This document shows positions 1 to 26,661 of a stretch of DNA of 64,000 nucleotides, piece by piece. The notes below the pieces were generated by a model. That model was not told where the DNA came from, made no database searches, and saw only the letters and a list, made by a program, of their open reading frames with translations. Each line of letters begins with the position of its first letter. The stretch's first letter is position 1. The position numbers and the translations under genes are program-made. The DNA is from Pseudobdellovibrionaceae bacterium (lineage in GTDB: Bacteria; Bdellovibrionota; Bdellovibrionia; Bdellovibrionales; Bdellovibrionaceae): the NCBI GenBank assembly GCA_019637915.1, contig JAHBUV010000001.1, positions 434,001 through 498,000 of the forward strand, read 5' to 3'.

Positions 1-244
1 CATTGGCTTCCACCCGCATTCTTGCGATTGGGGTTTTAGCTCCGTAAGTTTTCTCCCATAGAACTTTCTTAGTGTTTGGGTGAATAATTTGAACGATGAA
101 CTTATTAGCCGAGTTATTTTTTGATTTAGGATAAATGATTTGAGTCATTAATTGTGGAGCAGTCTTACGCAATAAGACCGCTTTCAATCTATCTTGATCC
201 TTGGCCTTCCGACCACGCTTTTTGGGCACCTTAATTTCAGTCAT
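1..244 (-). CDS. Small basic hypothetical protein (partial, runs off window)
   Basis: The start is at 244, preceded by a strong AGGAGG ribosome-binding site; the 3' end lies outside the window. The N-terminus is very basic (KKRGRKAK). The visible part, with FIVQIIHPNTKKVLWEKTY, clearly resembles the small protein at 61672-61929 (IKARIVNPVNDKVLWSQVY), so the two are paralogues. The function is unknown; the basic tail and small size suggest a nucleic-acid-associated protein, which is only inference. It lies just downstream of tRNA-like gene 1 and probably shares its promoter at 362-388. Confidence 0.75.
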   Translation of the reverse strand, partial: MTEIKVPKKRGRKAKDQDRLKAVLLRKTAPQLMTQIIYPKSKNNSANKFIVQIIHPNTKKVLWEKTYGAKTPIARMRVEAN

Positions 245-263
245 AATCTTTCCTCCTAAAAGA

Positions 264-352
264 GGGAGCAGGAAGGATTCGAACCTTCGGCAAAGGCGCA
301 CAACCTATGCCTCCTGGTAAAGTCCTTTCAGTCGTGGACCCACCACTACTCC
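264..352 (-). tRNA. tRNA-like gene 1, unusual internal structure
   Basis: A 7-bp acceptor stem (GGAGTAG with CTGCTCC, one G-U pair) and a perfect T arm (GAAGG, loop TTCGAAT, CCTTC) are present. The D arm can form only as TCC/GGA after a 7-nt linker instead of the usual 2, and its loop lacks GG. No clean 7-nt anticodon loop is visible; ACC/GGT closes a 10-nt loop. CCA is not encoded. The promoter-like box ACCGGTAT ends about 10 nt before the 5' end. The amino-acid identity cannot be assigned. Confidence 0.55.
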
Positions 353-361
353 CACTTACTA

Positions 362-388
362 ATACCGGTTTTAGAGGAGAATCTTAGA
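362..388 (-). promoter_or_regulatory. Class-1 cassette (long form) upstream of tRNA-like gene 1
   Basis: On the minus strand it reads TCTAAGA, 12 nt, ACCGGTAT, after an AT-rich TTTAATAA run. The tRNA-like 5' end lies about 10 nt downstream, which fits a promoter whose -10-like box is ACCGGTAT. This copy is the best evidence that the cassette starts transcription. Confidence 0.6.
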
Positions 389-406
389 TTATTAAAAAAT
401 GATGAG

Positions 407-946
407 CTAAGTGCTTGATTTGAGTTGTTTCTCTAAGGCACGACGGAGTTGTTGGCCGGATTTCATTTTTTCTCTATGAAGAGTGGTTTTTTTTAATTTC
501 GGTGTAAGACTTAAGTGAGACCAGCCACTAACAGAGATATAATGTCCTTTTTCACGGACGCACTTCATATTGTTTAGTGCACATCTTGGAACGAAATATA
601 TTTCTTTGGTTACGGCACAACGGACAACTAATAATTTGCGAGACCATCCACGCAATGCGGTCGGTAAATATCCAAAATTCTTTTGCGTTAACTCCGCGTC
701 TACTTCAGGCGGTAGTGGAAGAGCTGATTTTTTATTCTTACTATTCACACGGGGAACATAGAGGCATTTTTGGCAAAATGTTTTTTGTTCTGGATGTTTG
801 TTAGCCTTGATAAGAGCATATCCGTAGGCGTGAGTGGTTTCGCACTGACATTTATCACAGATTAGAGCTACCGGTGAATGCGTGGTAGGTGCTAAATCCT
901 TAGGTTCATATCCGAATCTGATTTTCGTTCTCTCAATACTAATCAT
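407..946 (-). CDS. Zinc-ribbon hypothetical protein (179 aa)
   Basis: Cys pairs at residues 30/33(/35) and 58/61 (CDKC and CQKC) form a zinc-ribbon-like module in the N-terminal third. The C-terminus is lysine/arginine rich. This suggests nucleic-acid binding, but no family is recognised. The start at 946 is set by AAAGGAGTC followed by ATG. The upstream leader (957-1035) folds into a long stem and contains a sequence complementary to this ribosome-binding site, so translation may be controlled by RNA structure. Confidence 0.75.
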   Translation of the reverse strand: MISIERTKIRFGYEPKDLAPTTHSPVALICDKCQCETTHAYGYALIKANKHPEQKTFCQKCLYVPRVNSKNKKSALPLPPEVDAELTQKNFGYLPTALRGWSRKLLVVRCAVTKEIYFVPRCALNNMKCVREKGHYISVSGWSHLSLTPKLKKTTLHREKMKSGQQLRRALEKQLKSST

Positions 947-950
947 AAAA

Positions 951-1035
951 GACTCCTTTATTTGTGATTAACCTCATGAGTGCGATTTGCCTCATTGGAG
1001 TCCGGTCTTCTCAGGACTACTAAATCACAAATAAA
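951..1035 (-). promoter_or_regulatory. Structured leader RNA with possible anti-Shine-Dalgarno switch
   Basis: A perfect 13-bp inverted repeat (957-969 with 1023-1035) encloses two hairpins: ATGAG/CTCAT at 976-980/991-995 and AGTCC/GGACT at 999-1003/1014-1018. The ribosome-binding site GGAGTC (951-956, minus strand) is complementary to GACTCC at 997-1002, which overlaps one arm of the second hairpin. The two pairings exclude each other, as in riboswitches and attenuators. No known riboswitch class is recognised. Confidence 0.45.
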
Positions 1036-1154
1036 GTGGTCGTTTCTTGATAACCACCGGGTGATAAAAATTATCACCAATGTATTATACAGAATTAAAA
1101 TGGTAATTTCCAATAAGGCTCAACAATTAATATTTTGAATAGATCAGTGAATTA

Positions 1155-1655
1155 TTAATCTATTAGACCGTTCAATTTCGTTCCGGGGTCAGGTCGGTTC
1201 ATAAGAATATCATCAATTAAGACCCGATTTTTATTAAAAACTCTCATCACGCCAGCTTCGTCTTCGGGACCAAGATTCCATGTGGAGTCTATAACAGCTT
1301 CTTTGAGAGTAATGAGTTGGTCATCGGAAAAATGGTTTAAGAATTCTTCGGTCATTATCCCAATTCGGTTAGTTCTCCCGCTTGGATCATAAAATCCTTT
1401 TAGTAAAATTCCCGAAAAAGAAATTAAAGATAAGTTCTGATGATAGAAGGCGTAGATGTTCTCTAAAATCTCAATGATACGTTTTTTATAAAACATCTCA
1501 CTAGCCGGACTCTTACAGGCCAAGTGATTACTCCAAGCGATTGCTTTAAAAATTAATTGAGGTGTTTGGTGAATATCAAGAACTTGGTTGGTCAGAGCTT
1601 TTACTTTTAATTGCTCCAGTTCTACATCCAAATCAGATAGGTTATGTTCGCTCAT
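1155..1655 (-). CDS. Hypothetical protein (166 aa)
   Basis: Soluble, mostly helical, acidic at the N-terminus. No recognised motif. Its start overlaps the stop of the upstream winged-helix gene (TAATG), so the two are translationally coupled and probably work together or share regulation. Confidence 0.75.
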   Translation of the reverse strand: MSEHNLSDLDVELEQLKVKALTNQVLDIHQTPQLIFKAIAWSNHLACKSPASEMFYKKRIIEILENIYAFYHQNLSLISFSGILLKGFYDPSGRTNRIGIMTEEFLNHFSDDQLITLKEAVIDSTWNLGPEDEAGVMRVFNKNRVLIDDILMNRPDPGTKLNGLID

Positions 1656-2338
1656 TAATTATCCTCCAGAATGAGAACGGTTTTCTTAGAGGATGTATCC
1701 CGTTTGACCAGACCACTTTCTTGTAATTCCTTAACGGCCCGGGAAATCTCGTTGGGGGAGGAACAGTTAATCTCTTTACGAATATCCTTATTCGTACTGG
1801 TTAAAGTTTTGTCTCCTTGAGCGCGGATTAAATCTAAGATTTTAGTTCCGGTATTAGATAGGGATAGTTCCCGTTGATTTTCTTTAAGGTGTTTACTCAA
1901 GGTTTGGTAATCCACCTTGAAATCAAATTTAGTTCCCGTATAGCCCGGGAGAGTTCTAATCAGGCCGGAACTTTCTAATTCTTTTAATAAAGCTCTGACT
2001 GGTTGGGTAGTTTTATAACCCAGACTTTCAGCCAGGTCCTTTTGCTTCAGTTCACTTGGTCCGGAGAAACCTTCAAGGAGGTGCGATAAGACCTCTCTGG
2101 AGCCCTTGGAGAGCGTTTTAAGCGTGTCCAGAGAGATAGTGGAGCCGTCATCAGCATTTAAGCCCTCAGGGCCTTCTGGAGCGAATGCGTTCGTTACAGT
2201 TTCGGGTGGATTAATATTAGAAACTGAATTGAATTTTGAGGCCGGGTGTTTAAGACAGTAATTATAAAGTTTGCGACCACCGATTAACATATCCTTGTAA
2301 CCGGGATAGATATGGTTGCCTGACGATTTTCTACCCAT
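1655..2338 (-). CDS. Tandem winged-helix DNA-binding protein (227 aa)
   Basis: Two winged-helix-like segments are visible, around residues 75-130 (LKQKDLAESLGYKTTQPVRA, then a wing) and 160-225 (KDIRKEINCSSPNEISRAVK, then ESGLVKRD). This arrangement fits a transcription regulator or a plasmid-type replication or partition factor; which one cannot be decided. It is the first gene after a compact class-1 cassette at 2360-2375 and is coupled to the downstream 166-aa gene. Confidence 0.75.
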   Translation of the reverse strand: MGRKSSGNHIYPGYKDMLIGGRKLYNYCLKHPASKFNSVSNINPPETVTNAFAPEGPEGLNADDGSTISLDTLKTLSKGSREVLSHLLEGFSGPSELKQKDLAESLGYKTTQPVRALLKELESSGLIRTLPGYTGTKFDFKVDYQTLSKHLKENQRELSLSNTGTKILDLIRAQGDKTLTSTNKDIRKEINCSSPNEISRAVKELQESGLVKRDTSSKKTVLILEDN

Positions 2339-2359
2339 AGATTTTTCTCCTATAGATAG

Positions 2360-2375
2360 ATACCGGTTTTTTAGA
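2360..2375 (-). promoter_or_regulatory. Class-1 cassette (compact form)
   Basis: On the minus strand: TCTAA, 3 nt, ACCGGTAT. Upstream lies module B (TTGGAAAGGTTAGCGG, about 2391-2406). The start codon of the winged-helix gene follows after a GGAG ribosome-binding site. Confidence 0.55.
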
Positions 2376-2423
2376 TGTCGTTATGAATTTCCCGCTAACC
2401 TTTCCAAGATAGAATTAGGGGAT

Positions 2424-2458
2424 GAAAATATATATCAAGAATTTTGATATATATCAGG
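2424..2458. repeat. AT-rich inverted repeat
   Basis: ATATATATCAA, GAAT, TTTGATATATAT forms a near-perfect palindrome of about 11 bp per arm. It lies between the winged-helix gene and the 69-aa gene. It could be an operator for the neighbouring regulator or part of a replication or partition site; nothing in the sequence decides this. Confidence 0.5.
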
Positions 2459-2486
2459 TTTTAGGAATGTCTATGATATGTATTCA

Positions 2487-2696
2487 CTAAAATATCGATT
2501 TTGTTAGTAAAGAGTCTTTAGGGGCGAAGAGAACTTTTTGGGATTTTTTATTAGAAACTTTAAAACCCTCAACACCGTTCTCAGTAGTAGCTTCAATCAC
2601 CACTACTTCCTGACCATTAAAGAGATAAGTATTCCCCACTTGAATGGGGAACAGCTCATCTATCGCATCATTGAATTGTTTTTTACTAATAGTCAT
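2487..2696 (-). CDS. Small hypothetical protein (69 aa)
   Basis: A short, probably beta-rich protein (VGNTYLFNGQEVVVIEATT pattern, like small SH3-like or KOW-like barrels). No family is recognised. It follows the 655-aa gene on the same strand. Confidence 0.6.
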   Translation of the reverse strand: MTISKKQFNDAIDELFPIQVGNTYLFNGQEVVVIEATTENGVEGFKVSNKKSQKVLFAPKDSLLTKSIF

Positions 2697-2748
2697 AAAA
2701 ATATTCTAACATAATGGGCGATATATCGCAATATACCAAATTGAGAAC

Positions 2749-4716
2749 TTAAGCCCTTTTCTTGTGAAAACTCTCACGGAAGGCTTTAGAAGCCTCTGTG
2801 TCTCCCGAGTAGAGTTCCAGAACGAATTGGAGTTGTTTCGCTTCTTTGGCTTTTTGCATTTTCTCACATAAGTTTTTAACCAAGGTTGGTTGCTTTTCAA
2901 AAGTAACCCCAAGACCATCTTTTAAATAGTTCGTCAAATTCCAGTGACGGTTAAGCATTGTGATGTGGGAGTAAAAGTTCTTATTAAACTCGCTACGAAC
3001 ATCCAAAGTGTAGAACATATGAAATAGATGTGAGTTATCTAACCACCAATCACGAGTGAATTGAGTTTCTTCACTGATAGAAGCTAAGACCAATCCCAAT
3101 GCCGGATAGTTCCCAGTCTTAAAAACATCAGATTGATTAGTAGGGTTTCCGTTTTCATCTTTAATGAAATAAAGGTTACGAGCCATCACTAACGCCGGAC
3201 TAAATGCGTCTCCGTGAGGGTTCCCACCATCAACCTTTTCTTTCCACCAGTCTTTATAATCATTCACTACATCTTCGGCGATATCTTGTTCAAACCAAGG
3301 CACGGATTGATAAGACATATCTTGGTCACCATAGACTAAACCACCAGTGCGTAGTTGCGGGTGAACTTGAGCGTAGTCCCGGGGAGTAAAGGCGATTCTT
3401 GTTCCCCGGGGGAGCCATTTAGTTTTACCGTCTTCAACACCCTCCACCATGTGGAACATGAAAACTTCCCCGGCGTAAATTCGCGTGTTGTTAGCGGTCA
3501 AGTATTGGTGACCATAATAACGGAAATCATTAGGACCAGCCACGCAACCATCAACGATGGCGTAGTAGCGAGTATTCGGGAAATAAAACTTCGCTTTTCC
3601 TTTTTCAAAGTTAGCTCCGACGATATCAACTGTATCATCATTGATATAAGTCTTCCCATCCTCTGGGTCACGAACTTCAACTTTCAAGAAGTGAGTCAAA
3701 TACATTGCGACCGAAGCTAAAAGTGGAGAGTAACGAGAAAGACCGTTTTTGACATCTTTCCCATGAACTCCAACTTTTCCAGCACGGGGAACTTGGGCTA
3801 CGCGAATCTCTTTAATGTAACCATCTTCAACTTTAATAATGATGCCCGCAAAATCTTGGCGGTATTTCATTAGACCTTGAACGGAGTCAGAGAACTCAGT
3901 TAGTTTAGCAAAGAATCCAGTCGCTAAATTAAGTGGCGCAAGAGTTGTATCATCCATTGCTGAATTAAGCTCTTTCAAGGCCAACAAATCCAATGAGTCA
4001 TTACGGGTTTCAGTAAACGATGTATCTTTCCCGTTAATAGACCCAGAGAATTGATAAGAACGCTTCGGGAGTTCTTTTCGGGCTGTTTCAATTAAAGTGG
4101 TGATGATGTTTACGTCTTCAGGGCTGGCATAGGTAGGCAATAGTTCAAAGAACTCAGCCAGAAGTTTCTCTTCTGTATCAGTAGAGGAGATAGTATTTAA
4201 AACTTTCGCCCGGATTTCACCTTGAATTAAATCCGTGAACGGGAATGCTTGGTAGTCCCCAGTTTTGATTGCGAGGTCGTAGTCATTCTTTAATCCAGCA
4301 ATTTCGGCACTAATAGCGAGAACTTCACCGTGGGCAATGGTGTTCTTATTAGGGTTTCGAGATTTCCAAACCATAAAACCATAATCTTGAGTCGTAGAAA
4401 TCAGTTTTCGTTGAACTGAGTTCAAACAATCTAAAATCTCTTGTGGCACCGGTTGAAAATCAGTGTTGGGAGGTTTGGCTGGAAACTCAATTGTAGGTTT
4501 AGGAATGTGTTTAAGGCTCTTATAGAGTTCAATTCGTTCTTCTTGATTCATTTGGTCTTGCGACTTCATGGATTTAGAAGGAGATGTTTTAAGGTTAACT
4601 GGAGCCTTCGGTTCAGGATTATCTTTAGGAGCTTGAGGCAATGGTTTATTAGCAAGTGGTTTGTATGCCACTCCCTTCATATCTTCAGCCTTAAATAAGT
4701 TCTTTAGCCACTTCAT
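2749..4716 (-). CDS. Large hypothetical protein (655 aa)
   Basis: A soluble protein with a proline/lysine-rich, probably disordered first 90 residues and a long globular remainder with many aromatic residues in the C-terminal half. No Walker, nuclease or transmembrane motif is visible, and no family is recognised. The size and a dedicated cassette (4803-4818) suggest an important element function, possibly structural or in mobilisation, but this is a guess. Confidence 0.8.
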   Translation of the reverse strand: MKWLKNLFKAEDMKGVAYKPLANKPLPQAPKDNPEPKAPVNLKTSPSKSMKSQDQMNQEERIELYKSLKHIPKPTIEFPAKPPNTDFQPVPQEILDCLNSVQRKLISTTQDYGFMVWKSRNPNKNTIAHGEVLAISAEIAGLKNDYDLAIKTGDYQAFPFTDLIQGEIRAKVLNTISSTDTEEKLLAEFFELLPTYASPEDVNIITTLIETARKELPKRSYQFSGSINGKDTSFTETRNDSLDLLALKELNSAMDDTTLAPLNLATGFFAKLTEFSDSVQGLMKYRQDFAGIIIKVEDGYIKEIRVAQVPRAGKVGVHGKDVKNGLSRYSPLLASVAMYLTHFLKVEVRDPEDGKTYINDDTVDIVGANFEKGKAKFYFPNTRYYAIVDGCVAGPNDFRYYGHQYLTANNTRIYAGEVFMFHMVEGVEDGKTKWLPRGTRIAFTPRDYAQVHPQLRTGGLVYGDQDMSYQSVPWFEQDIAEDVVNDYKDWWKEKVDGGNPHGDAFSPALVMARNLYFIKDENGNPTNQSDVFKTGNYPALGLVLASISEETQFTRDWWLDNSHLFHMFYTLDVRSEFNKNFYSHITMLNRHWNLTNYLKDGLGVTFEKQPTLVKNLCEKMQKAKEAKQLQFVLELYSGDTEASKAFRESFHKKRA

Positions 4717-4802
4717 ATTGCACCGACTCCTATTATCTCAACATTTTTAATAAAAGTAATCACCGCCCAATATGGCTTGATCTACTTCCGTATATCAGTG
4801 AG

Positions 4803-4818
4803 ATACCGGTAATTTAGA
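4803..4818 (-). promoter_or_regulatory. Class-1 cassette (compact form)
   Basis: On the minus strand: TCTAA, ATT, ACCGGTAT, about 85 nt before the start of the 655-aa gene. That leader is longer than at most copies. The rest of 4717-5013 shows no convincing gene. Confidence 0.5.
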
Positions 4819-5013
4819 AAGTCGTGTTGTAATGGGCGAGACGTGAAAATTTATAATGGGTGGGAGAGGCAAAAATATTTTTGAAATTGTCGGAGTAGCT
4901 CTTGTCCCAAATACAGGCGTTATTCGGGACTAATTTAATGTTGAAACTAAGGTGCTTGGGATTGAGTTGATTGGAAATGATTGGGGTTTTGAGAATAAAA
5001 ACCTGCAATATTT

Positions 5014-5144
5014 TGGTGTCCCCCGATGGATTTGAACCACCGACCTCCTATGCATTGTCTTAAGCTACATAAGTGCTCTGTTGCTACTATATCAAATCAC
5101 TGATCAGGTGATTCTTCATTTCGCCCGGACTGAGCTAGAGGGAC
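5014..5144 (-). tRNA. tRNA-like gene 2 with inserted sequence, CCA encoded
   Basis: The acceptor stem GTCCCTC/GGGGGAC, discriminator A, encoded CCA, T arm (GGTGG, TTCAAAT, CCATC), AGGTC variable loop and D-stem strands GCTC and GAGC are all canonical. The D loop, however, is about 50 nt and contains a perfect hairpin (AATCAC, 7-nt loop CTGATCA, GTGATT), and CTTAT/ATAGG closes a 17-nt anticodon loop. The total is about 55 nt longer than a normal tRNA. The anticodon cannot be read. It ends 5 nt from the 130-aa gene in the same operon. Confidence 0.6.
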
Positions 5145-5148
5145 ATAT

Positions 5149-5541
5149 TTAAGCGGAATCTTTTTTATCACAAATCTTTAAAACTAAAGAATCGTTCATC
5201 CCAGATTTAGTGTTTCCAGGGATATTTCCGTGAACTAACTCTGGATTTTCTTCTATTGGACCAAGTAACCACTTACCTTGAGCTTTGAGTTCTTTAATCT
5301 CAAACGCGTTCTTTTCTTCAGAAAGTTTTGCTTGCCGGTCTTTCTCTCTGGCCTCTTTCATTCCCTCACCCTGACAATTTTCTGTCTTTTCATAATTTTC
5401 ATAGGAATGAATTTCGTCGAGCACTACTTGCACCGCATAGGTAAAAAGGTTGTGAGCTAGAGTCCTAAAGAATTGGAAGAACATAATAGCCATACAAATG
5501 ATGCCGACAAACAACACACCGTTAAAAATGAATTCAGCCAT
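5149..5541 (-). CDS. Membrane-anchored hypothetical protein (130 aa)
   Basis: One N-terminal transmembrane helix (about residues 5-25, FIFNGVLFVGIICMAIMFF) is followed by a charged, probably coiled-coil region with many Glu and Lys. The start overlaps the stop of the upstream gene at 5541. Function unknown. It lies in an operon punctuated by tRNA-like elements. Confidence 0.7.
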   Translation of the reverse strand: MAEFIFNGVLFVGIICMAIMFFQFFRTLAHNLFTYAVQVVLDEIHSYENYEKTENCQGEGMKEAREKDRQAKLSEEKNAFEIKELKAQGKWLLGPIEENPELVHGNIPGNTKSGMNDSLVLKICDKKDSA

Positions 5542-5891
5542 TACGCACCCACTTGAATTTTTAGTGAGCGAAGTTCAACGGTAATTCCGGCGGTCTTAGC
5601 TTTGGCAATTCCTTTATCCATTTCGGGACTAATACCTTTATCAATGTAGACGACAACTTTACTGGCTACACTCAAGAATTGGTCGCCCGCATTTTCACAA
5701 AGTTGTTGGCTCTCAGGACTACTATCTAAGACATTAGCCTGTTTGTAGGTGAGACTTGAAGAGAACGGGGCTTCACCACGCTTAAGACAATCAGCCAAAC
5801 ACTTTTGGGCATACTCCACGTTCTGTTTCGTTTCCCGGGTTGTTTTTCCCTCATACGGACTTTCTATTACTACAATCGTTTTATTTTGCAT
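5541..5891 (-). CDS. Deoxyribosyltransferase-like protein (DUF4406/DUF7768-like, 116 aa)
   Basis: The N-terminal IESPYEGKTTRETKQNVEYA, a conserved middle and a GISPEMDKGIAKAKTAGITV ending match small phage and plasmid proteins with a nucleoside 2-deoxyribosyltransferase-like fold. The catalytic role in those proteins is mostly unproven, so the call is for the fold only. Its ribosome-binding site GGAGG directly follows the CCA end of tRNA-like gene 3, so tRNA 3' processing would leave this site at the mRNA 5' end. Confidence 0.55.
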   Translation of the reverse strand: MQNKTIVVIESPYEGKTTRETKQNVEYAQKCLADCLKRGEAPFSSSLTYKQANVLDSSPESQQLCENAGDQFLSVASKVVVYIDKGISPEMDKGIAKAKTAGITVELRSLKIQVGA

Positions 5892-5904
5892 TTTACTATC
5901 CTCC

Positions 5905-6077
5905 TGGCAGAAAGGGATGGACTTGAACCACCGACCTCACAATCTCTTTAATCCTTACTAGCGGAGTTTCATCTCTAGAAAACTACTCCATCCGTCTTCG
6001 TGACTGTTTACTTAGATTTCATTGCAACTAAACCTAAGTTCACCAATTGGGCGCTCTACCGACTGAGCTACCTTCCT
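5905..6077 (-). tRNA. tRNA-like gene 3 (Thr-GGT-like) with ~97-nt insertion
   Basis: The 5' half is canonical: acceptor AGGAAGG, then TA, D arm GCTC-AGTCGGTA-GAGC, then CCCAA and a loop start TTGGTGA that would read anticodon GGT. The 3' half is also canonical: AGGTC, T arm GGTGG-TTCAAGT-CCATC, acceptor CCTTTCT, G, encoded CCA. Between them are about 115 nt instead of about 18. The insert contains ACTTAG/CTAAGT and GGAG/CTCC helices. It is too short for a typical group I intron. Identity and splicing are inference. Confidence 0.65.
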
Positions 6078-6083
6078 ATAAAA

Positions 6084-6524
6084 TTACTCTTTTTCTCCTC
6101 TTAAACTAATTAACAACTTCACCATTTCCTTGCGGAGTTGCTCTGGGTTGTCTTTATGTTTTTCTTTTAATTCAGCGACCTTTTGCTTAGTCGCTATTGT
6201 TTCTTCATTAACTTCATCTACCAAAGATTCAATCGGACCATTACCCCTGGCTCCGAGAACATCGGGCAGACCTAATTTGGATTGAATAGATTTGCGAACG
6301 CGGAAATAAATGACTTTATGAAGTCCCCAAACAATCAAAATAGCGGTGAAGACTTTTAATTTAAAAATTAGTAAGGAAGCATCAAAACCAGTTACTACTG
6401 AATGAATAGTTGAAAGAATTAAGTAGAAGGCAAAACCGACCAACGACAAATTAAGCACTACATTCAAAACCAGACTGATGAATGCGATGATGGCTAATTT
6501 AGTGTTTGGAGTTAGAAATCTCAT
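6084..6524 (-). CDS. Two-helix membrane protein (146 aa)
   Basis: Two hydrophobic segments (about residues 8-38 and 52-72) are followed by a cytoplasmic-looking charged tail with coiled-coil character (about 105-145). The start overlaps the end of the 86-aa membrane gene by 4 nt. Function unknown; probably forms a membrane complex with its neighbour. Confidence 0.7.
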   Translation of the reverse strand: MRFLTPNTKLAIIAFISLVLNVVLNLSLVGFAFYLILSTIHSVVTGFDASLLIFKLKVFTAILIVWGLHKVIYFRVRKSIQSKLGLPDVLGARGNGPIESLVDEVNEETIATKQKVAELKEKHKDNPEQLRKEMVKLLISLRGEKE

Positions 6525-6781
6525 TGAGACACTCCATTAGATTTCTTTTTAAGATTTTCTTTTAATAGCTTAAGTGCAAGATTACCAATCTGAACGTATT
6601 TGATTATTTTCAACACCGCGTAGGATACGAAAATATAAACCAGTGTTTGCGTGTGGCTGTAGAGCGTTGCAGAACTATTAGAAAGCAAGAGATAAGCTAC
6701 GATAGTCATTTGAGCGTATAAGCAAATTTTCACCACTTTGGCAGTTAAGTATAAAGTTTTAGTGAACACGGATTTAGTCAT
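6521..6781 (-). CDS. Two-helix membrane protein (86 aa)
   Basis: Two transmembrane segments lie at about residues 12-34 and 42-62, with a basic C-terminus. First gene after the cassette at 6841-6867. It is coupled to the 146-aa membrane protein. No family recognised. Confidence 0.65.
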   Translation of the reverse strand: MTKSVFTKTLYLTAKVVKICLYAQMTIVAYLLLSNSSATLYSHTQTLVYIFVSYAVLKIIKYVQIGNLALKLLKENLKKKSNGVSQ

Positions 6782-6840
6782 TAATTACTCCTTAAAAAGT
6801 AAGGGGCCAACCATCCGTAGCTGAAACCCCTCATAGACTA

Positions 6841-6867
6841 ATACCGGTTTTCGGGAAGAATCTTAGA
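6841..6867 (-). promoter_or_regulatory. Class-1 cassette (long form)
   Basis: TCTAAGA, 12 nt, ACCGGTAT on the minus strand, directly after the 3' end of the FtsK-like gene and before the membrane-protein operon. Confidence 0.6.
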
Positions 6868-6870
6868 ATA

Positions 6871-7791
6871 TTAAAACAAGGTCTTAATAAACGATTTAAT
6901 TCGCGCCCATAGAGACAATTTCGGAGTATATAGCGGAGTAAATTTTAATTCGTGTTGCTCCACAAACTTCACCGTATCGTTTGCCCGTAGTGAGATAACT
7001 GGGAAATGTCCACGGGAAGGGTCTAAACCATCCGCCCTGACGATGTATTCGCCTTTGTCCATATCATCTGGCATTTTTAGACCAAGCATTTGTTGGTCGG
7101 ACGATTGGAGTTTATGAGCTAACATAGTGGGAAGATTTCTTCGGATAGAGGTAGGGTAAGAATCTTGGTAAACTCTTTGAGAGGAAAAAATAAAAGTAAA
7201 TCCGAACGAACGGGACTCTGATAATAGTCGCTCTAATCGGTTAATCGCGGTTCCATTGGTTTTTGCTAAACTATCCCAATCAACATCTCTAATTAAGGCT
7301 TTTAATTCATCTACAACCACCCACACACGAGGGAGAGGTCCTACCTCTTGACGATACTCATGAAGGTTACGAACTTTCTTTCCTTCTTCACGAGCTTCTT
7401 GAAATAGCTTTTGACGATATTCATATTCAGCCCAGACAGTGTTGATTAGCGTTTCAAATTCAGAAAAATTATGGGCGACGGGAAGTGGAGATAGATTTTT
7501 AACCGCATCGTAATCACCACCGCGTTTTCCGTCAGCAAAAAACCAAGTCGTTCCTTTCTCTTTATTAAGTAGAGAGTGAAGTAGCGCGAAATTAATTAAG
7601 GTTGTGGATTTGCCCGAACCTGTTTGGCCTGGAACGATAGCATGAACGAAGTCATTTATAGAAATTGTGGCGGAATATTCTTCACCCTTATCATCACTAA
7701 AATTGAAGAGTAAGACCTGTTCGTTACCCTTTTGTTTTTCAATCTCTTTTATCTTTTCAATTTCTTTAACTACATCAAATGTTTTTTGCAT
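6871..7791 (-). CDS. FtsK/SpoIIIE-type ATPase, short form (306 aa)
   Basis: Walker A GQTGSGKS is at residues 55-62 and Walker B VWVVVDE ends at 162. An FtsK-type motor core follows (LLSESRSFGFTFIFSSQRV, then RRNLPTMLAHKLQSSDQQML). It lacks a membrane anchor and the DNA-orienting gamma domain. It is a clear paralogue of the 824-aa protein at 48803, sharing blocks such as EYRQEVGPLPR. It probably moves DNA in transfer, segregation or packaging; the hexamer partner is unknown. Its promoter cassette is at 7812-7838. Confidence 0.85.
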   Translation of the reverse strand: MQKTFDVVKEIEKIKEIEKQKGNEQVLLFNFSDDKGEEYSATISINDFVHAIVPGQTGSGKSTTLINFALLHSLLNKEKGTTWFFADGKRGGDYDAVKNLSPLPVAHNFSEFETLINTVWAEYEYRQKLFQEAREEGKKVRNLHEYRQEVGPLPRVWVVVDELKALIRDVDWDSLAKTNGTAINRLERLLSESRSFGFTFIFSSQRVYQDSYPTSIRRNLPTMLAHKLQSSDQQMLGLKMPDDMDKGEYIVRADGLDPSRGHFPVISLRANDTVKFVEQHELKFTPLYTPKLSLWARIKSFIKTLF

Positions 7792-7811
7792 CGTTTTCTC
7801 CTTACAGATAG

Positions 7812-7838
7812 ATACCGGTTTTGGAGAAAAATCTTAGA
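7812..7838 (-). promoter_or_regulatory. Class-1 cassette (long form)
   Basis: TCTAAGA, 12 nt, ACCGGTAT on the minus strand, about 20 nt before the ATG of the FtsK-like gene. Confidence 0.6.
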
Positions 7839-7870
7839 ATATTAAAATGAGGTATTGTGGGGAGACTTAT

Positions 7871-8284
7871 CTAAACTGACTTTTTATTTCGTTTCTTTTT
7901 CTTCTGGTAAAATGCTTTTCTTTGAAGTTCATTCTCTACCTCATTCAGGTAGCTTGATGCGGCAGCTTGAATTAAGGCAATCGCTGAGATGACCTTCGCC
8001 TTAGGTATTCCACGTCCGTTATGTTTGATGTGGTTGTAGATTTGGTCCGTCCAACAATGAAAAGGAAGATTGGTGTTCCAGTCTTTTTCCTTCTCAAAAC
8101 CAATACCGATAGTATCAAACTTGGAAAATCCTAATACGGCGTTATTTTTAGAGACCTTTACTCGAAATAAGGCGTCTTCAGATTTGAGAAACGGAGTAAA
8201 GAGAACCTGAAGACCACCAGAGTCGTCATTATTCTTAACCACATCTTTCACTGATTCATTAACTTCTAATTTTAGACATTTCAT
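7871..8284 (-). CDS. Hypothetical protein (137 aa)
   Basis: Soluble, with a lysine/arginine-rich C-terminus (KKKKRNKKSV). No recognised motif. It follows the Acb2-like gene by 13 nt in one transcription unit. Confidence 0.65.
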   Translation of the reverse strand: MKCLKLEVNESVKDVVKNNDDSGGLQVLFTPFLKSEDALFRVKVSKNNAVLGFSKFDTIGIGFEKEKDWNTNLPFHCWTDQIYNHIKHNGRGIPKAKVISAIALIQAAASSYLNEVENELQRKAFYQKKKKRNKKSV

Positions 8285-9801: not shown

Positions 9802-9977
9802 TTTGGGGCTGGAAATCGGAATGCGATTTATAAACGGTTAATATCTCAATGATTTTCGATAGGTACATTTTTAATAAAATAGGCGAATTTTCGATAAAAA
9901 CGACGCTATTTTTCTATATATCAAAAGTAAGTAAGTAAATTCGTAGCCCAATATAAATTCTAAATCGGACCACAAAA

Positions 9978-19746: not shown

Positions 19747-19915
19747 AAACCACCAATCTCGACATTGCATCGTAAAAGGAAGCCATGGCACGGGCTAGTT
19801 ACTCGTAGGGAGCGGTATGGGCCGATCCCTACGTTTTTACATCAGTTTTTGCTTGCCTATAACCGAATTTGGAATTAAACAAGGGTGGTTATTTTCATTA
19901 GTCAAGGAGACAGCT

Positions 19916-22792
19916 ATGTCAAAGCGCCCCCAATATCGATGTCAAGTTTGCGAAGAGCCCGCCACGGTTAAGGTTGCGGCGGATGTGAACGGTCGTAGGA
20001 CTGTTACACCGCTCTGTGATCGACATTATCGCCAACTTTTACTGCAACAGAAACGTTCAATTTCTCCGATGGAGTCTTTGTTCGGTCCGCGCTCTGGTTT
20101 TTTTGAAAACTTTTGGGGAAGTGATTTTTTTAATTCAGGCTTTGGTTTCCCGATGGATGCTTCTGATGAAGCATCAGAAGAGAATGATACTGGCGTTCAC
20201 TTGGAAAGCACTGAAGCAAGCGCCGAATCCCCGACCCACCGACGCGGAAGTGGGATTGCTGGCCGCTTAAGCGAGCAAGCAGAAACACAACTTCAAGAAG
20301 CCGCAAAACGTGCAGCGGAATACGGCCGGTCAGATGTCGATACCGAGCACGTTTTGTTGGCACTTACTGAAAGTGACGTGGTTAAAACAATACTGAGTCG
20401 ATTCAAAATCAATATCGAAGATTTAGGGCGCCAAATTGAATCCGAAGCAAAGCGCGGAGAAAAGCCCTTTGAAGGTGAAATGGGCGTTGCCCCACGAGTA
20501 AAAGATGCCCTAGGCCGGGCCTTTGTGGCTTCCAACGAGATGGGGCATTCCTATGTTGGTCCCGAGCACCTTTTGGTTGGCTTAGCAGAAGAAGGCGAAG
20601 GTCTTGCCGCTAATGTGCTTCGCCGCTATGGAATTACGCCGCAGTCACTCAGGCAACAGGTTATCAAAGTGGTGGGTAAAGGGGCTGAGAGCGGTCGTGC
20701 GGACTCCCCAACAAATACTCCAGAGCTGGATAAGTACTCGCGCGACCTCACGAAGCTTGCCCGTGATGGAAAACTTGATCCTGTTATTGGACGAGCTCAA
20801 GAAATTGAAACAACCATCGAAATTCTTGCAAGACGCAAGAAGAACAATCCGGTCCTAATCGGCGAGCCGGGTGTTGGAAAAACAGCCATTGTCGAAGGGC
20901 TCGCTCAGCGCATGGTCTCTGGAGAAGTGCCGGAGATTTTACGCGACAAGCGGCTTGTTGAACTCAATATCAATTCTCTTGTCGCTGGTGCGAAGTATCG
21001 AGGGGAATTTGAAGAGCGAGTTCAAAAAGTGCTTAAAGAGGTTTCAAGCAACCATGGTGAACTAATATTATTTATCGACGAAGTTCATACTATAGTCGGT
21101 GCCGGACAAGGCGGCGGCGAAGGCGGGCTTGATATTGCCAACGTGTTTAAGCCGATGATGGCGCGCGGAGAACTTAATTTAATTGGCGCCACAACCCTAA
21201 ATGAATATCAAAAATACATTGAAAAAGACGCGGCACTTGAGCGGCGTTTTCAGCCTGTAATGGTCGCAGAGCCAACCGTATCTCAGGCAATCATGATTCT
21301 ACGAGGACTCAGGGACACCTTTGAGGCTCATCACAAGGTTAGCATTTCGGACGACGCAATTCTTGCCGCAGCCGAACTCTCAAAACGCTACATCACATCC
21401 AGGTTCTTGCCCGATAAGGCGATCGACCTGTTGGATCAGGCGGCGGCTCGAGTCAAACTCTCAACGACCTCTCGTCCGGTTGCGGTTCAAGAGCTGGATG
21501 CAGAACTTCACCAATTGCGCAGAGAGCAGGATTCCTTAGCTGCCGGCAAGAAGTTTGATAAAGCTTCCGAATTGGGCAAACGAATTGAAGCCAAGGAATC
21601 TGAACTTAAAAAGCTTGTTGAAAACTGGGAAAGAGAACGCGCATCAGGAAGCGCCGAAGTTAAATCAGAGCATGTCGCGCAAATTGTGTCGCGCCTGACA
21701 GGCATTCCTGTTACTGAGCTGACGACTGAAGAAAAAGAAAAACTTTTGCATCTTGAACAAAAGCTACATAAGCGCGTGGTTGGCCAGGATGAGGCTGTAC
21801 GGGCGGTTGCCGATTCCGTTCGCTTGGCAAGAGCAGGCTTACGTGAGGGCGGAAAACCCGTTGCGACTTTCTTATTTTTAGGTCCGACGGGAGTGGGAAA
21901 AACTGAGCTTGCGAAAGCTTTAGCTGAAGCTATCTATGGTGACGAAGACGCGCTTTTGCGTATTGATATGTCCGAGTACGGTGAGCGTCATACTGTTGCA
22001 AGACTAGTCGGAGCTCCTCCTGGATACGTGGGTTATGATGAAGGCGGTCAACTTACGGAAAAAGTAAGGCGTCGCCCATATAGCGTCATACTATTAGACG
22101 AAATCGAAAAAGCTCATGCCGATGTGTACAATGTTTTGCTTCAAGTATTCGACGACGGTCGGTTGACCGATGGTAAAGGGCGTGTGGTTGATTTTTCCAA
22201 TACAATCATTATTGCGACCTCGAACCTGGGCTCGGACATTATTCAGCGACGTCTAAGCGCACGTAGTGTGGTCGGAGAAGAATACGAGAAGACAAAGCTA
22301 GAGCTTTTGGATATTCTTCGCGGACACTTTAGGCCTGAATTTTTGAATCGTATCGATGAGATCATCGTCTTTCACGCTTTGGGTAAAGAGGAAATTCGCA
22401 GTATTGTTCACTTGCAACTCGCCCGGGTCGCTCAAAATGCGTCTAGCCAGGGCGTCGCACTCACGTTTGATGACTCTTTGATTAATCATCTTGCTGAGGA
22501 GGGTTACAAACCTGAATTCGGCGCGCGAGAACTTAAACGCCAGATTCGAACTGAGCTTGAAACCGCTTTGGCGAAAGAAATGCTTGGCGGAGGCGTCGCG
22601 CAGGGAGATTCAATCAGAGTTTGCTGGGATGCTTCAGCTGATCGAGTGACCTTCGAACGAATCCAGGCCCCTAAACCTAAAGATGAGACCAAGGCGGCGG
22701 GCTCAGCAGCAAAAAAAGAGACTCGCGATAAACCAGTTCCTCAAAAAGAAAAAGGTAAAATGAAGGGTCAAGATCGTAGTAAATCGGATTAG
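19916..22792 (+). CDS. clpK: ClpK/ClpG-type heat-resistance disaggregase (958 aa)
   Basis: A Clp/Hsp100 AAA+ protein. The start at 19916 (MSKRPQYR) follows AAGGAGACAGCT; the upstream in-frame extension is not supported. The N-terminal zinc site (C9, C12, C34, H37) is followed by two Clp-N repeats, AAA-1 with Walker A GEPGVGKT near 316, a short middle domain, AAA-2 with GPTGVGKT near 655, and a charged C-terminal tail. Zinc-headed ClpG/ClpK proteins are the hallmark of transmissible stress-tolerance loci and rescue aggregated protein after lethal heat. More GC-rich than the surrounding element. Confidence 0.93.
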
Positions 22793-22800
22793 CCGAGTGC

Positions 22801-23208
22801 ATGAGCCGCTTTCTTCCCTTTGAGATCTGGCAATGGTTTGTCGCGATCATTTCTATCTTGGTAGGAATTCTTACGGCGGGACATGCCGTTATATTCAAGC
22901 GTGATCCGCGTTCAGCGATTCTTTGGCTACAGACCTTTGTTCTTTTGCCGATAGTTGGTTCAGCATTATATTTAGTTTTGGGTATAAATCGCTATCAGCG
23001 ACGCGCGAGGAGTTGGCGAAGTATCGCGCCGGTTGAAGATAGTTCGTTCCTAAGTATGGTTTCTGTGCCCCCAGCTCTTAAGAGCATGAAGTATCGACTT
23101 AGCTCACGGGACCGGAAGTCACAGGCTTTAAACTTCGCGGTTTCGAACATTTTAATGAATACATTGGAGTCGAGATCGAATAAGCTCTGTTTATGGGTTC
23201 TGAATTAG
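22801..23208 (+). pseudogene. Cardiolipin synthase N-terminal remnant
   Basis: Two membrane helices and LVGILTAGHAVIFKRDPRSA, then ILWLQTFVLLPIVGSALYLV, match the PLDc_N region of cardiolipin synthases (~480 aa in full). The two HKD catalytic domains are absent; the frame ends after 135 residues, overlapping the next gene by 16 nt. A deletion fused this remnant to the downstream gene. Confidence 0.7.
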
Positions 23209-23723
23209 GGATAGATTGGGAGACGCTCAGCTATATCGTGACCGTGATCGGTTTTCCGTTTGCTATTTTCGTCTTCATGCTCGAGCAGCGAAAAGAGCGG
23301 GAAAACGAGGAGGCCGGCATCTATCAAAAACTCTCAGACGACTACGCGGAATTTTCGAAGCTCCTACTTGAAAACGCCGATCTGCGACTGATGTCAGAAG
23401 TTCTGTCCGATGGCGATTTAACACCTGAACAAAAAGAGCGAAAGAAGGTCATCTTCGATATTCTGATTTCCATTTTTGAGCGTGCTTTCATTCTTGTGCA
23501 TCAAAAGAACATGAACCGTCGAACAAGACGTCTCTGGTCGACGTGGGAAGACTTCATTGAGAGCTGGTGCCGAAGAGAGGACTTCAGGGAATCACTCCCT
23601 GAACTTCTTCTGGGTGAAGATCCAGAGTTTGGAGCCTACATTCGGGATACGGCAGCGAAAGCGAATCGGCAGTTTTCGGAAAAGCCAAAAGGCGCAAGTG
23701 GCTCGGCACCTAGCGCCTTCTAG
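23193..23723 (+). CDS. Single-span membrane protein (176 aa)
   Basis: One transmembrane helix (about residues 13-32, YIVTVIGFPFAIFVFMLEQR) is followed by a helical cytoplasmic domain with conserved-looking LISIFERAFIL and LWSTWEDFIESW. No family recognised. It overlaps the end of the cardiolipin synthase remnant; the true start may have been lost in the rearrangement. Part of the island by base composition. Confidence 0.6.
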   Translation: MGSELGIDWETLSYIVTVIGFPFAIFVFMLEQRKERENEEAGIYQKLSDDYAEFSKLLLENADLRLMSEVLSDGDLTPEQKERKKVIFDILISIFERAFILVHQKNMNRRTRRLWSTWEDFIESWCRREDFRESLPELLLGEDPEFGAYIRDTAAKANRQFSEKPKGASGSAPSAF

Positions 23724-23733
23724 CATGCCCAAC

Positions 23734-24048
23734 TTATCGCGCCGAAACTCTTTGAGCGTCGACCGCGCCCTCGTAACAGACGAACTGATTTCCTGCCCCA
23801 AGCGGCAACAGGCCGACCCTCTCGTACCCAGGCTCCAGAAACTTATTCAGCGTTTCGCGTAAGCTCACGGTCGGCGTTCCTAAACATTGAAGACGTTCTT
23901 GATAAATTTCTTTTTTCGGCGGAGGTGAAAGCACTGATTGTTCAAACGGCTCTTGTTGTCGGTCCGCTAGAGCCATCGACTCTGGCGCAGGGAAATGGCC
24001 GAATGAAAATGCCAAAGCAACCGCAGCGATAAGACCCGATTTTTTCAT
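23734..24048 (-). CDS. Small secreted protein (104 aa)
   Basis: The start at 24048 (MKKSGLIAAVALAFSFG) follows GGAGGTCAACA. Signal peptide of about 25 residues. The mature part ends with FLEPGYERVGLLPLGAGNQF, a short fold seen in small secreted proteins. Two cysteines could form a disulfide. Antisense to its island neighbours. Function unknown. Confidence 0.65.
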   Translation of the reverse strand: MKKSGLIAAVALAFSFGHFPAPESMALADRQQEPFEQSVLSPPPKKEIYQERLQCLGTPTVSLRETLNKFLEPGYERVGLLPLGAGNQFVCYEGAVDAQRVSAR

Positions 24049-24253
24049 TGTTGACCTCCTTGCTAATTCCAAAAGGAAATTTGTCTTTCGCATTTCATCC
24101 GTCAAGGTGACGCTCTTGACAAGAAACTGACCCGTTTTCAAATTTGAAAGTGTGGCGTTGGGCGCACGCGGGCTTGAGAATTTTCCGGTCGCTAACAGCT
24201 TCTACGTGCGACGCCAATGCACTTCGATAGACGCCCAAAAAGGAGGTAAGGTT

Positions 24254-24397
24254 ATGGCGACCCTAGCTTGGAACTTAATTCGACAGACTGGGTCTTCAAA
24301 TCAATCAGTCAATCAAAGACGATTCTCAGACGCCATCGACCGTTTGATCGAACGTCATCCTGAAGCGGGGCGTTGTCCCTCGATCAATTTCAACTGA
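24254..24397 (+). CDS. Short ORF with strong ribosome-binding site, probably interrupted (47 aa)
   Basis: AAAAAGGAGGTAAGGTT precedes the ATG. The readable part (MATLAWNLIRQTGSSNQSVN, then a helix) runs into the palindrome at 24371-24410 and stops. The frame differs from the ftsH remnant that follows. Probably the broken start of a former gene. Confidence 0.4.
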   Translation: MATLAWNLIRQTGSSNQSVNQRRFSDAIDRLIERHPEAGRCPSINFN

Positions 24398-24410
24398 TCG
24401 AGGGACAACG
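24371..24410. repeat. Perfect 16-bp inverted repeat at ftsH scar
   Basis: CGTTGTCCCTCGATCA, loop ATTTCAAC, TGATCGAGGGACAACG. The right arm encodes the FtsH-like LIEGQR; the left arm is its exact inverted copy. This looks like a snap-back or template-switch scar made when ftsH was deleted. Confidence 0.65.
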
Positions 24411-24549
24411 CCGAAATTTTGACCGAGCTTATCGAATCTTGGAGCGCAACAAAGTGATTCTAGATCAATGCGCCAAGGATTTACTTATCCGAGAGACTCT
24501 TGAAGAAGTTGACATAAGGAAACTTTCTGCTAGTTTGGCTATGCTATGA
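24394..24549 (+). pseudogene. ftsH: ftsH C-terminal remnant
   Basis: The frame gives EGQRRNFDRAYRILERNKVI, then a segment ending RETLEEVDIRKL, which matches the extreme C-terminal helical region of the FtsH protease. The AAA and HExxH domains are missing. An FtsH homologue is a regular member of transmissible stress-tolerance loci, between clpK and yfdX, exactly this position. Confidence 0.65.
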
Positions 24550-24615
24550 ATAAACAATAAAAGCTTAACTTAAGGCACGCAAAATGCATGTCGGAAAAAC
24601 CAATGGAGGTTACTA

Positions 24616-25515
24616 ATGAAAATCAAAAGAATGCTGTTATCGTTTGCGGCGCTTGGAATTCTTACAAATTCCATGTTCGCCGAAGGCTCATCGCTCCCTA
24701 CGAACCCGCAATCGCGTTCATCTACGGCCGAGGGGGTGCAATCCCAAGTCGAATCTAAACAAGCTGAAAAGGCTACCCAGCTTCGCAAAAAACTTTTAGC
24801 AGAAGCGGCCTTAGCGATAGATGACACAAAGAAAGCTCTAGCCTTTCTTGATAAGAAAAATTCGAAGGAGGCACTTGCTGCATTGGAGCGAGTCACAGGT
24901 AAGCTAGAGCTGATTATCTCGCGTGAACCGGGCCTGGCGCTGGCTCCTATTGACATGAATGTTGCGGTCCAGGATTTGTTGGCTGATCCGGATACTGTAA
25001 AGGTCATCCTAAAAGAAGCGAGAGATCTGCTTGGCGACGGCGAAGTTCAGAAGGCTCGTCCACTATTGGCAAACCTCTCTAGCGAGATGGTGTTCAGCAC
25101 GATCAACATCCCGCTTGCCACCTACCCACAGGCGATAAAAGCTGTGGCCCGACTGATTGACGAAAACATGCTCAACGAGGCAAAGACAGCACTTGAAGCT
25201 GCGCTAAGCACGCTAGTTGTGACTGACGTGATTATCCCGCTACCGGTGCTTAGGGCAGAACTCCTTCTTAAAGAAGCAGAGAAATTGGCTGAGAAAAGCA
25301 ACCGCTCTGAAAAGGAAAATGAGTCCCTATCGAATCAACTGTCTGAGGCCCGTAAGCAAGTTCGCTTGGCTGAGGTGCTGGGATACGGTAAAAAGAAAAC
25401 TTATAAGCCAATCTATGAACAAATCGATCAAATTGAAAAGAAGTCTCGCGGCGGGAAAAGTGGTCGCGGCTGGTTTGATAATATCAAAAAGAAAGTTTCT
25501 GAGTTGTTTGGCTAA
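24616..25515 (+). CDS. yfdX: YfdX family periplasmic protein (299 aa)
   Basis: A signal peptide (about residues 1-22) is followed by the YfdX domain: KLLAEAALAIDDTKKALAFL, PIDMNVAVQDLLADPDT and a conserved ALSTLVVTDVIIPLPVLRAE. YfdX proteins are soluble, probably periplasmic, chaperone-like proteins of the stress-tolerance locus and of acid or heat resistance clusters. ATG after GGAGG. The basic glycine-rich tail (about 275-299) is longer than usual. Confidence 0.85.
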   Translation: MKIKRMLLSFAALGILTNSMFAEGSSLPTNPQSRSSTAEGVQSQVESKQAEKATQLRKKLLAEAALAIDDTKKALAFLDKKNSKEALAALERVTGKLELIISREPGLALAPIDMNVAVQDLLADPDTVKVILKEARDLLGDGEVQKARPLLANLSSEMVFSTINIPLATYPQAIKAVARLIDENMLNEAKTALEAALSTLVVTDVIIPLPVLRAELLLKEAEKLAEKSNRSEKENESLSNQLSEARKQVRLAEVLGYGKKKTYKPIYEQIDQIEKKSRGGKSGRGWFDNIKKKVSELFG

Positions 25516-25560
25516 ACTCGACGCGTTTATATTTATAATCGCAGGAAGGGAGAAAAGAGC

Positions 25561-26175
25561 ATGACTACACGAACTCAGGAAGCTTGGGGGCATGTCGTCT
25601 GCTCGCTTTCTCCAAACTGGTGGTTATTTGTTCTTCGCGGAATTTTGGCTCTGATTTTTTCGGTTCTTGCATTCTTGTTGCCGGTGCAAGCATTGTTTGC
25701 ATTTTCATTAGTCTTCGGAGCTTTTTCATTGGTCGACGGTGCCTTTGGTTTAGTTTCAGCGTTTAGGCGAATGCGCAAAGGCTCTCGTTGGGGATGGCTT
25801 GCCTTCAGTGGGATTTTAGGAATTTTGGTGGGTGTGGTTGTGCTTCTGTCGCCTTTTGTTGCGACAATTGTGCTGGCCACATTTTTGTGGGCCAATATTG
25901 CAATTTGGTCGGCGTTTTCCGGCGTGCTTGAGATTGCCGCCGCAATTCGGTTGCGTCGAGAGATCAAGGGCGAGTTTTGGTTGGTCTTAAATGGAATTCT
26001 GTCGATCATTTTTGCCACGGTTATTCTGTGGCTTCTTTTGACTCGCCCAATAGAAACCGTCATTGCCCTCGGCTGGTTGATGGGAGTCTACGCATTATTA
26101 TCAGGATTTGTTTTAATCTTTTTGGGGTTAAAGTTGCGAAAAGCAGAAAGGGCCCTCTCATTACAACATGTGTAA
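25561..26175 (+). CDS. hdeD: HdeD family membrane protein (204 aa)
   Basis: Six hydrophobic segments in pairs (DUF308/HdeD layout), starting with NWWLFVLRGILALIFSVLAF and later VLNGILSIIFATVIL. HdeD proteins are inner-membrane proteins linked to acid resistance and are standard in the stress-tolerance locus. ATG follows GGAAGGGAG. 45 nt after yfdX; same operon. Confidence 0.85.
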   Translation: MTTRTQEAWGHVVCSLSPNWWLFVLRGILALIFSVLAFLLPVQALFAFSLVFGAFSLVDGAFGLVSAFRRMRKGSRWGWLAFSGILGILVGVVVLLSPFVATIVLATFLWANIAIWSAFSGVLEIAAAIRLRREIKGEFWLVLNGILSIIFATVILWLLLTRPIETVIALGWLMGVYALLSGFVLIFLGLKLRKAERALSLQHV

Positions 26176-26196
26176 TGGCAGGGATGAGGAGGCACC

Positions 26197-26661
26197 TTGT
26201 CGCTTAGAAAGCATTTTTTGCAGCCAAACATCATGAAATTTTACGATCGTTTTGAACAAACTATTGCGATTACCCTCACGGGTATTATCTCGGTGATTAT
26301 CTTAGTATCTGTAGTGCAATTGATTCGAAATGTTTTCTTCTCATTGATTCTTGGCGCTCTGGACCCTCTCGAACACAATAGCTTTCAGGCGATTTTTGGA
26401 ATGATCATGACCGTCCTAATCGCTATGGAATTTAAGCATTCAATTATTCAAGTCGCCCTTCGTAGGGACAGTTTTGTGCAGGTCAAGACCGTGGTGCTCA
26501 TTGGGTTGATTGCCATAGCCCGAAAATTTGTGATCGTTGATGTAAATGAGACCGAACCGGCAAAACTTGCTGCCTTAGCTGGAATGGCGATTTCCCTAGG
26601 CGTAACCTATTGGTTATTGCGAGAGCGCGAAGACCGAATGGATGAGAGTGGTAAATCCTGA
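26197..26661 (+). CDS. psiE: PsiE-like membrane protein (154 aa)
   Basis: TTG start after GAGGAGGCACC. Four transmembrane segments, with the PsiE-typical second-half block IAMEFKHSIIQVALRRDSF and KTVVLIGLIAIARKFVIVD. PsiE-type proteins close the stress-tolerance locus in many Proteobacteria. Last intact island gene. Confidence 0.8.
   Translation: MSLRKHFLQPNIMKFYDRFEQTIAITLTGIISVIILVSVVQLIRNVFFSLILGALDPLEHNSFQAIFGMIMTVLIAMEFKHSIIQVALRRDSFVQVKTVVLIGLIAIARKFVIVDVNETEPAKLAALAGMAISLGVTYWLLREREDRMDESGKS

Follow-up and report, generated by a model that had tools for sequence, protein, structure and literature searches.

A review describes bacterial transfer RNA (tRNA) genes as having a uniform structure from which only group I and group II introns depart significantly, and position 37/38 of the anticodon loop is the canonical intron site of tRNA genes in all three domains of life (PMC4033280). 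Here, we describe three tRNA-like genes with expanded loops that lie within 6 kb of each other, all on the minus strand and all at gene junctions, in the genome of a Pseudobdellovibrionaceae bacterium (assembly GCA_019637915.1; 3.3 Mb, 99.8% complete). The 64,000-nucleotide (nt) stretch analysed, hereafter the window, comprises bases 434001-498000 of a 3.26-Mb contig and is located inside a low-GC element extending from ~424.3 kb to 536.2 kb of that contig (112 kb). Positions refer to the window unless stated otherwise.

Several described systems share features with these genes. The tRNA genes interrupted by group I introns (cyanobacterial tRNA-Leu(UAA), Azoarcus tRNA-Ile) carry their insert at 37/38, as gene 3 does, but the gene 3 insert spans 97 nt with no group I match, and genes 1 and 2 have inserts in their D arms. 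The protein-spliced introns of archaea and eukaryotes are likewise shorter than 100 nt and placed at 37/38, with occasional non-canonical sites, whereas the host here is a bacterium without EndA or RtcB. Organelle tRNA punctuation also places tRNA structures directly between same-strand cistrons, where they can be excised by tRNA-end enzymes; in our case, the tRNAs are abnormal, only three occur in 112 kb of a bacterial mobile element, and cleavage is a prediction from sequence. Transfer-messenger RNA (tmRNA) and the His-accepting tRNA-like structures at viral 3' ends likewise retain a normal acceptor/T half while their lower half has been replaced, and gene 1 shares His marks with the latter. 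Our genes differ in that they do not lie at the 3' end of a genome, have no identified tag reading frame and match no tmRNA family of Rfam. Finally, phage tRNA arrays, which support translation or counter defence, resemble our set in residing on a mobile element with a base composition unlike that of the host, but they are clusters of normal decoding tRNAs. Expanded-loop tRNA-like genes at operon junctions are an unusual variant of tRNA genes, tRNA-like structures and punctuation, and fall outside normal tRNAs and the known intron classes. A literature search, with subscription journals and preprints mostly outside its reach, found no published bacterial tRNA gene with an insert this short.

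Three tRNA-like genes with expanded loops

We scanned the whole element blindly for sequences of 65-260 nt that combine a 7-base-pair (bp) acceptor stem with a 5-bp TTCRANY T arm; apart from the tRNA-Leu at the element edge, genes 1, 2 and 3 were the only matches. Since 100 block-wise dinucleotide shuffles yielded a mean of 0.46 matches per element, falling to 0.15 with U8 and to 0.01 with CCA, chance does not account for genes 2 and 3. Default ARAGORN detected none of the three genes. All acceptor and T-arm pairs form in each of them (13 in gene 1 and 12 each in genes 2 and 3, counting G-U as a pair), in line with an earlier note on this DNA that had called these parts proper and had attributed D-stem strands and an encoded CCA to two of the genes. 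These two are genes 2 and 3, both with a 4/4 D stem and CCA, and their inserts are located in loops, not in stems. Whereas the canonical acceptor, T arm and U8 are present in all three genes, a 5-bp anticodon arm with a 7-nt loop is present in none. The isotype signals are coherent only in gene 1, which is consistent with His; the GGU anticodon of gene 3 conflicts with its acceptor, G37 and G73, the isotype of gene 2 is ambiguous, and the acceptor and discriminator types of both genes 2 and 3 are at odds with their possible anticodons.

The Rfam tRNA model, the kind of check that the earlier note had proposed, recognises gene 3 (43.3 bits, E-value 6.9e-06 over the whole window) but leaves gene 1 below the cutoff (25.7 bits against a gathering score of 29; E-value 0.061 corrected for all 4227 families). 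With introns allowed, ARAGORN reads gene 3 as a tRNA-Thr(GGT) interrupted at position 38 (anticodon-loop 37/38) by 97 nt, which agrees with the excess given in the earlier note. The acceptor (7/7), D (4/4) and T (5/5) stems are fully paired and the anticodon stem has 4/5 pairs, with a C28.U42 mismatch; U8 is present, and G73 at the 3' end is followed by the encoded CCA. Folded alone, gene 3 keeps its acceptor, D and T arms in the minimum-free-energy structure. The insert has no second copy in the genome, and we rejected the idea that it is a repeated or mobile sequence.

Gene 2 comprises a 7/7 acceptor stem (GUCCCUC/GGGGGAC, followed by UA, with U8), a 4/4 D stem (GCUC/GAGC) flanking a 53-nt loop, a 5/5 anticodon stem (CUUAU/AUAGG; 8 bp when extended) flanking a 17-nt loop, the segment AGGUC, a 5/5 T arm (GGUGG-UUCAAAU-CCAUC), A73 and CCA. 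The D loop contributes ~44 nt and the anticodon loop 10 nt to the excess of ~55 nt noted previously. An Ile(GAU) cloverleaf drawn through the hairpin AUCAC-CUGAUCA-GUGAU is an alternative, but GAGC as the 3' strand of the D stem matches the tRNA consensus better, and we therefore assign no isotype to gene 2. Between genes 2 and 3, the T arms are nearly identical, although the acceptor stems have almost no sequence in common.

Gene 1 exceeds the length of a normal CCA-less tRNA by ~16 nt. Its acceptor stem is paired at 8/8 positions (GGGAGUAG/CUGCUCCC, G-1:C73 included), followed by U8, and its T arm at 5/5. The hairpin GGCAUAGG-UUGUGCG-CCUUUGCC presents a 7-nt loop with U33 and the His anticodon GUG; the D arm is extended, the anticodon stem has a U.U mismatch and a normal variable loop is lacking. 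The earlier note had described the D and anticodon region of gene 1 as odd. The fold has a z-score of -3.08, and the acceptor, T and anticodon helices are each predicted with a probability (P) of ~1, both alone and in the mRNA context. The case for gene 1 is the weaker one; its basis is the Rfam score, the location next to genes 2 and 3 and the His-type features.

Placement between genes and a putative role in RNA processing

Genes 3 and 2 are embedded in a minus-strand string consisting of a copy of the repeated motif described below, two open reading frames (ORFs), gene 3, two further ORFs and gene 2. The stop codons of the preceding ORFs are 6 nt before gene 3 and 4 nt before gene 2, and the CCA of gene 3 overlaps the Shine-Dalgarno (SD) sequence of the next ORF (CCAGGAGG), a punctuation-type layout. 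Gene 1 is just downstream of another motif copy, and its 3' end is 6 nt before the SD of the following gene. In the predicted fold of this leader, CUCCUC of the motif pairs with the SD sequence AGGAGGA and encloses the whole tRNA-like structure. A punctuation-mark or regulatory-mimic reading is compatible with this layout because of the gene-junction sites, the RNase P-type top halves, the RNase P RNA gene of the host (218 bits) and the way in which gene 1 appears to fill its leader.

We tentatively favour the view, without holding it to be probable outright, that the three genes are non-decoding, tRNA-derived RNA processing or leader modules of the 112-kb element. Each appears to keep what tRNA-end enzymes recognise, namely the coaxial acceptor/T-arm helix, U8 and, in two genes, RCCA, whereas the expanded anticodon/D half probably has no decoding role now; decoding by these genes is not needed because the host tRNA set is complete. 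RCCA is a determinant of cleavage by bacterial RNase P, non-tRNA substrates included (PMC12710915). Host RNase P, together with tRNA 3' nucleases at the 3' end, would recognise the modules, which would serve in processing or in protecting RNA ends. A polycistronic mRNA transcribed through genes 3 and 2 would be cut there, between cistrons or after them. Gene 1 would supply a structured 5' leader, with a presumed regulatory effect, for the minus-strand gene starting at 244. We consider it unlikely that the loop-expanded tRNA-like RNAs act as the element's own processing signals and leader switches in the following way: the His-type structure would sit in the loop of an SD-sequestering hairpin, and the next gene would be translated once host tRNA enzymes cut or bind this structure.

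Several observations weigh against processing or leader modules. The full folds of gene 3 (z -0.03) and gene 2 (z -0.59) are no more stable than shuffled sequences. In a longer context, the gene 3 acceptor helix loses to competing folds (P 0.02), and its formation would therefore require tertiary structure or co-transcriptional folding. Genes 2 and 3 retain D stems beyond what RNase P recognition alone needs. The modules are read from sequence and predicted folds rather than at the RNA level, and any selection on the structures is judged from one genome because a homologous element was not found. Close relatives were detected neither by blastn of window positions 1-8000 against phages nor by protein searches against phages, plasmids, IMG/VR and related genomes. 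Other members of the phylum have distant helicase/polA modules in their genomes (30-42% identity), but an acceptor/T-arm scan of 237 kb around the related helicase/polymerase modules found no expanded tRNAs. When 607 kb of contigs with chance matches to the motif were scanned along with these 237 kb, all matches with U8 and CCA were normal tRNAs, and a short, weakly similar contig from a genome of the same order contained no expanded tRNAs.

Decay, decoys, introns and attachment sites

The main rival, which we regard as somewhat unlikely, is that the genes are decaying passenger tRNAs, once ordinary and no longer needed alongside a complete host set, whose loops gained insertions. Spare tRNAs are common on mobile elements, the anticodon arms are damaged throughout (the mismatch of gene 3, the 17-nt loop of gene 2, the irregular arm of gene 1), and an intact top half with a lost anticodon half is also what an early stage of decay would leave; no relative shows conservation or selection. 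Less easily explained by decay are acceptor and T stems fully paired in all three genes, inserts that avoid stems, an intact CCA in two genes and the occurrence of three such genes within 6 kb, each at a gene junction. The acceptors of genes 2 and 3 have diverged yet are paired, so pairing has outlasted divergence or the two genes have separate origins.

A phage-borne tRNA(Tyr) overcomes Septu, a tRNA(Tyr) cutter (PMC13096335), and with this precedent the genes could be decoy or escape tRNAs that shield the element or its host from anticodon or variable-loop nucleases, or titrators of tRNA-binding enzymes. Such a role would suit gene 1, in which the tRNA-His marks G-1:C73 and the GUG loop could be bound by histidyl-tRNA synthetase or by a His-tRNA nuclease. 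Genes 2 and 3, however, are without a consistent isotype, the operon-internal placement would go unexplained and no defence partner was identified near the genes, so that we judge a decoy function improbable.

Whether the genes are working tRNAs with a new short bacterial intron, removed by unknown enzymes, is very doubtful. The insert of gene 3 does occupy the canonical intron site, and the remaining exons form a cloverleaf with anticodon GGU. Yet the tRNA-splicing endonuclease EndA (PF01974) and the RtcB ligase (PF01139, the ligase type searched) are absent from the 99.8% complete genome, with the positive control detected for each, and an Rfam scan that included the inserts matched no group I or II intron family. 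With 97 nt, the gene 3 insert is about as long as the catalytic core of a group I intron by itself. In the predicted gene 3 fold, no bulge-helix-bulge was clear by eye, no model-based search having been made. Threonine tRNAs have A37, which is required for t6A. The exons of gene 3, with G37, A1:U72, G2:C71, G73 and a mismatched anticodon stem, would make a poor tRNA-Thr and differ from every host tRNA-Thr gene. Gene 2 would require two excisions, one of them from the D loop, and 0/142 tRNA matches have a long insert in four other genomes of the phylum, carriers of related modules included. From the earlier note, we thus retain tRNA-derived genes with inserted sequence and find mini-introns unsupported.

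We give hardly any weight to the idea that the genes are old tRNA attachment sites left over from previous integrations: the element itself lies in a tRNA-Leu(GAG) beside a tyrosine integrase, with a displaced tRNA-Leu 3' fragment at its left end, and we accept this origin for the edge tRNA-Leu, but we reject it for genes 1-3, which hold both halves rather than 3' fragments, adjoin no integrase gene and have inserts (97, 44 and 10 nt) that are too small for elements and lack clear repeated cores.

The repeated leader motif and the host element

The element contains 27 copies of [A/T]ACCGGTAT (contig 424478-534505), most of them with TCTAAGA exactly 11 nt upstream. The motif takes the form TTTTAATATTCTAAGA-N11-AACCGGTAT, and most copies precede a start codon by a short distance; examples in the window are at 370, 2368, 6849, 7820, 8512, 9260, 9802, 29208, 30944 and 38037 on the minus strand and at 9977, 46869, 48786, 55500, 56166 and 62739 on the plus strand. 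An exact pattern search of the genome returned 18 copies, 18/18 of which are in the element. The 11-nt spacer is more complementary to the SD region of its own copy than to those of other copies (z 4.75, 0/1000 permutations), and the same permutation test gave no significant complementarity to regions further upstream or downstream. The motif matched no Rfam family, and searching viral and genome collections with it returned single chance matches only. It may be a regulon-wide SD-hiding leader RNA of a new type, or a two-box promoter whose inverted repeat is unexplained, and the two readings may hold together. An SD-hiding hairpin would fit because the spacer is complementary to its own SD region; a two-box promoter read by a sigma factor of the element would suit equally because the 11-nt spacing is fixed, and gene 1 would then begin at about the first transcribed base.

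The element encodes very divergent sigma-factor-like proteins at 57209-58012, 60682-61398 and 56191-57117 and at L034:13850-14701 (minus strand), among which only the first two have weak Sigma70_r4/ECF matches. These proteins are candidate readers of the repeated motif.

Most likely, the 112-kb stretch (GC ~39%, against ~60% in the flank) is an integrative element that occupies a tRNA-Leu gene, because a tyrosine integrase (contig 535133-536221; Pfam Phage_integrase) and a complete tRNA-Leu(GAG) are adjacent at its right end and a displaced tRNA-Leu 3' part is at its left end. Both edge copies share the anticodon-loop sequence TTTGAGGGGC, as read from the sequence, and the crossover was apparently in this loop.

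The element also carries an IS21-type insertion of higher GC (32471-34734, minus strand; IstB, 211 bits, and an IstA-like transposase) and a higher-GC island (~48%; 19817-26661, plus strand) that encodes a ClpK-type heat-survival ATPase (1791 bits, slightly under the cutoff), a cardiolipin-synthase fragment, YfdX, HdeD/DUF308 and PsiE. We take this island to be similar to the transmissible heat-resistance locus of other bacteria. Flagellar switch proteins (a full FliG, FliM, a second FliG and a MotA-FliG fusion-like protein) are unusual cargo for a mobile element. A diadenylate cyclase gene (39100-39771, minus strand; DAC domain, E-value 4e-35) is possible cyclic-di-AMP signalling cargo.

Table 1. 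Location of the tRNA-like genes, their neighbours and other features of the element (window positions unless indicated)
Feature	Position	Strand	Description or basis
Gene 1	264-353	-	tRNA-His-like, no CCA; sub-threshold Rfam, fold
Gene 2	5014-5144	-	CCA at 5016-5014; acceptor/T scan with U8 + CCA, fold, direct reading
Gene 3	5905-6077	-	tRNA-Thr(GGU)-like, CCA at 5907-5905; Rfam, ARAGORN, fold
SD downstream of gene 1	251-257	-	AGGAGGA; ATG at 244
Motif copy upstream of gene 1	362-388	-	leader/promoter motif, TCTAAGA-N11-AACCGGTAT
Motif copy heading the string of genes 3 and 2	6841-6867	-	
Operon gene	6521-6781	-	86 amino acids, no Pfam match
Operon gene	6084-6524	-	146 amino acids, no Pfam match; precedes gene 3
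Operon gene	5541-5891	-	116 amino acids, DUF7768 (Pfam); follows gene 3
Operon gene	5149-5541	-	130 amino acids, no Pfam match; precedes gene 2
Displaced tRNA-Leu 3' part	contig ~424278-424360		divergent; left element end
Complete tRNA-Leu(GAG)	contig ~536316-536400		right element end
Flagellar switch protein genes	L034:3355-4371, L035:3785-4819, L035:5080-6273, window 31521-32399		

The leader motif is perhaps a more important and interesting find than the tRNA-like genes. Similar genes may be overlooked in other mobile elements because standard finders such as default ARAGORN miss them. The three loop-expanded genes, in one element and at operon junctions, would represent either a new type of bacterial tRNA interruption or the use of tRNA structures as mRNA processing or regulatory parts outside organelles.

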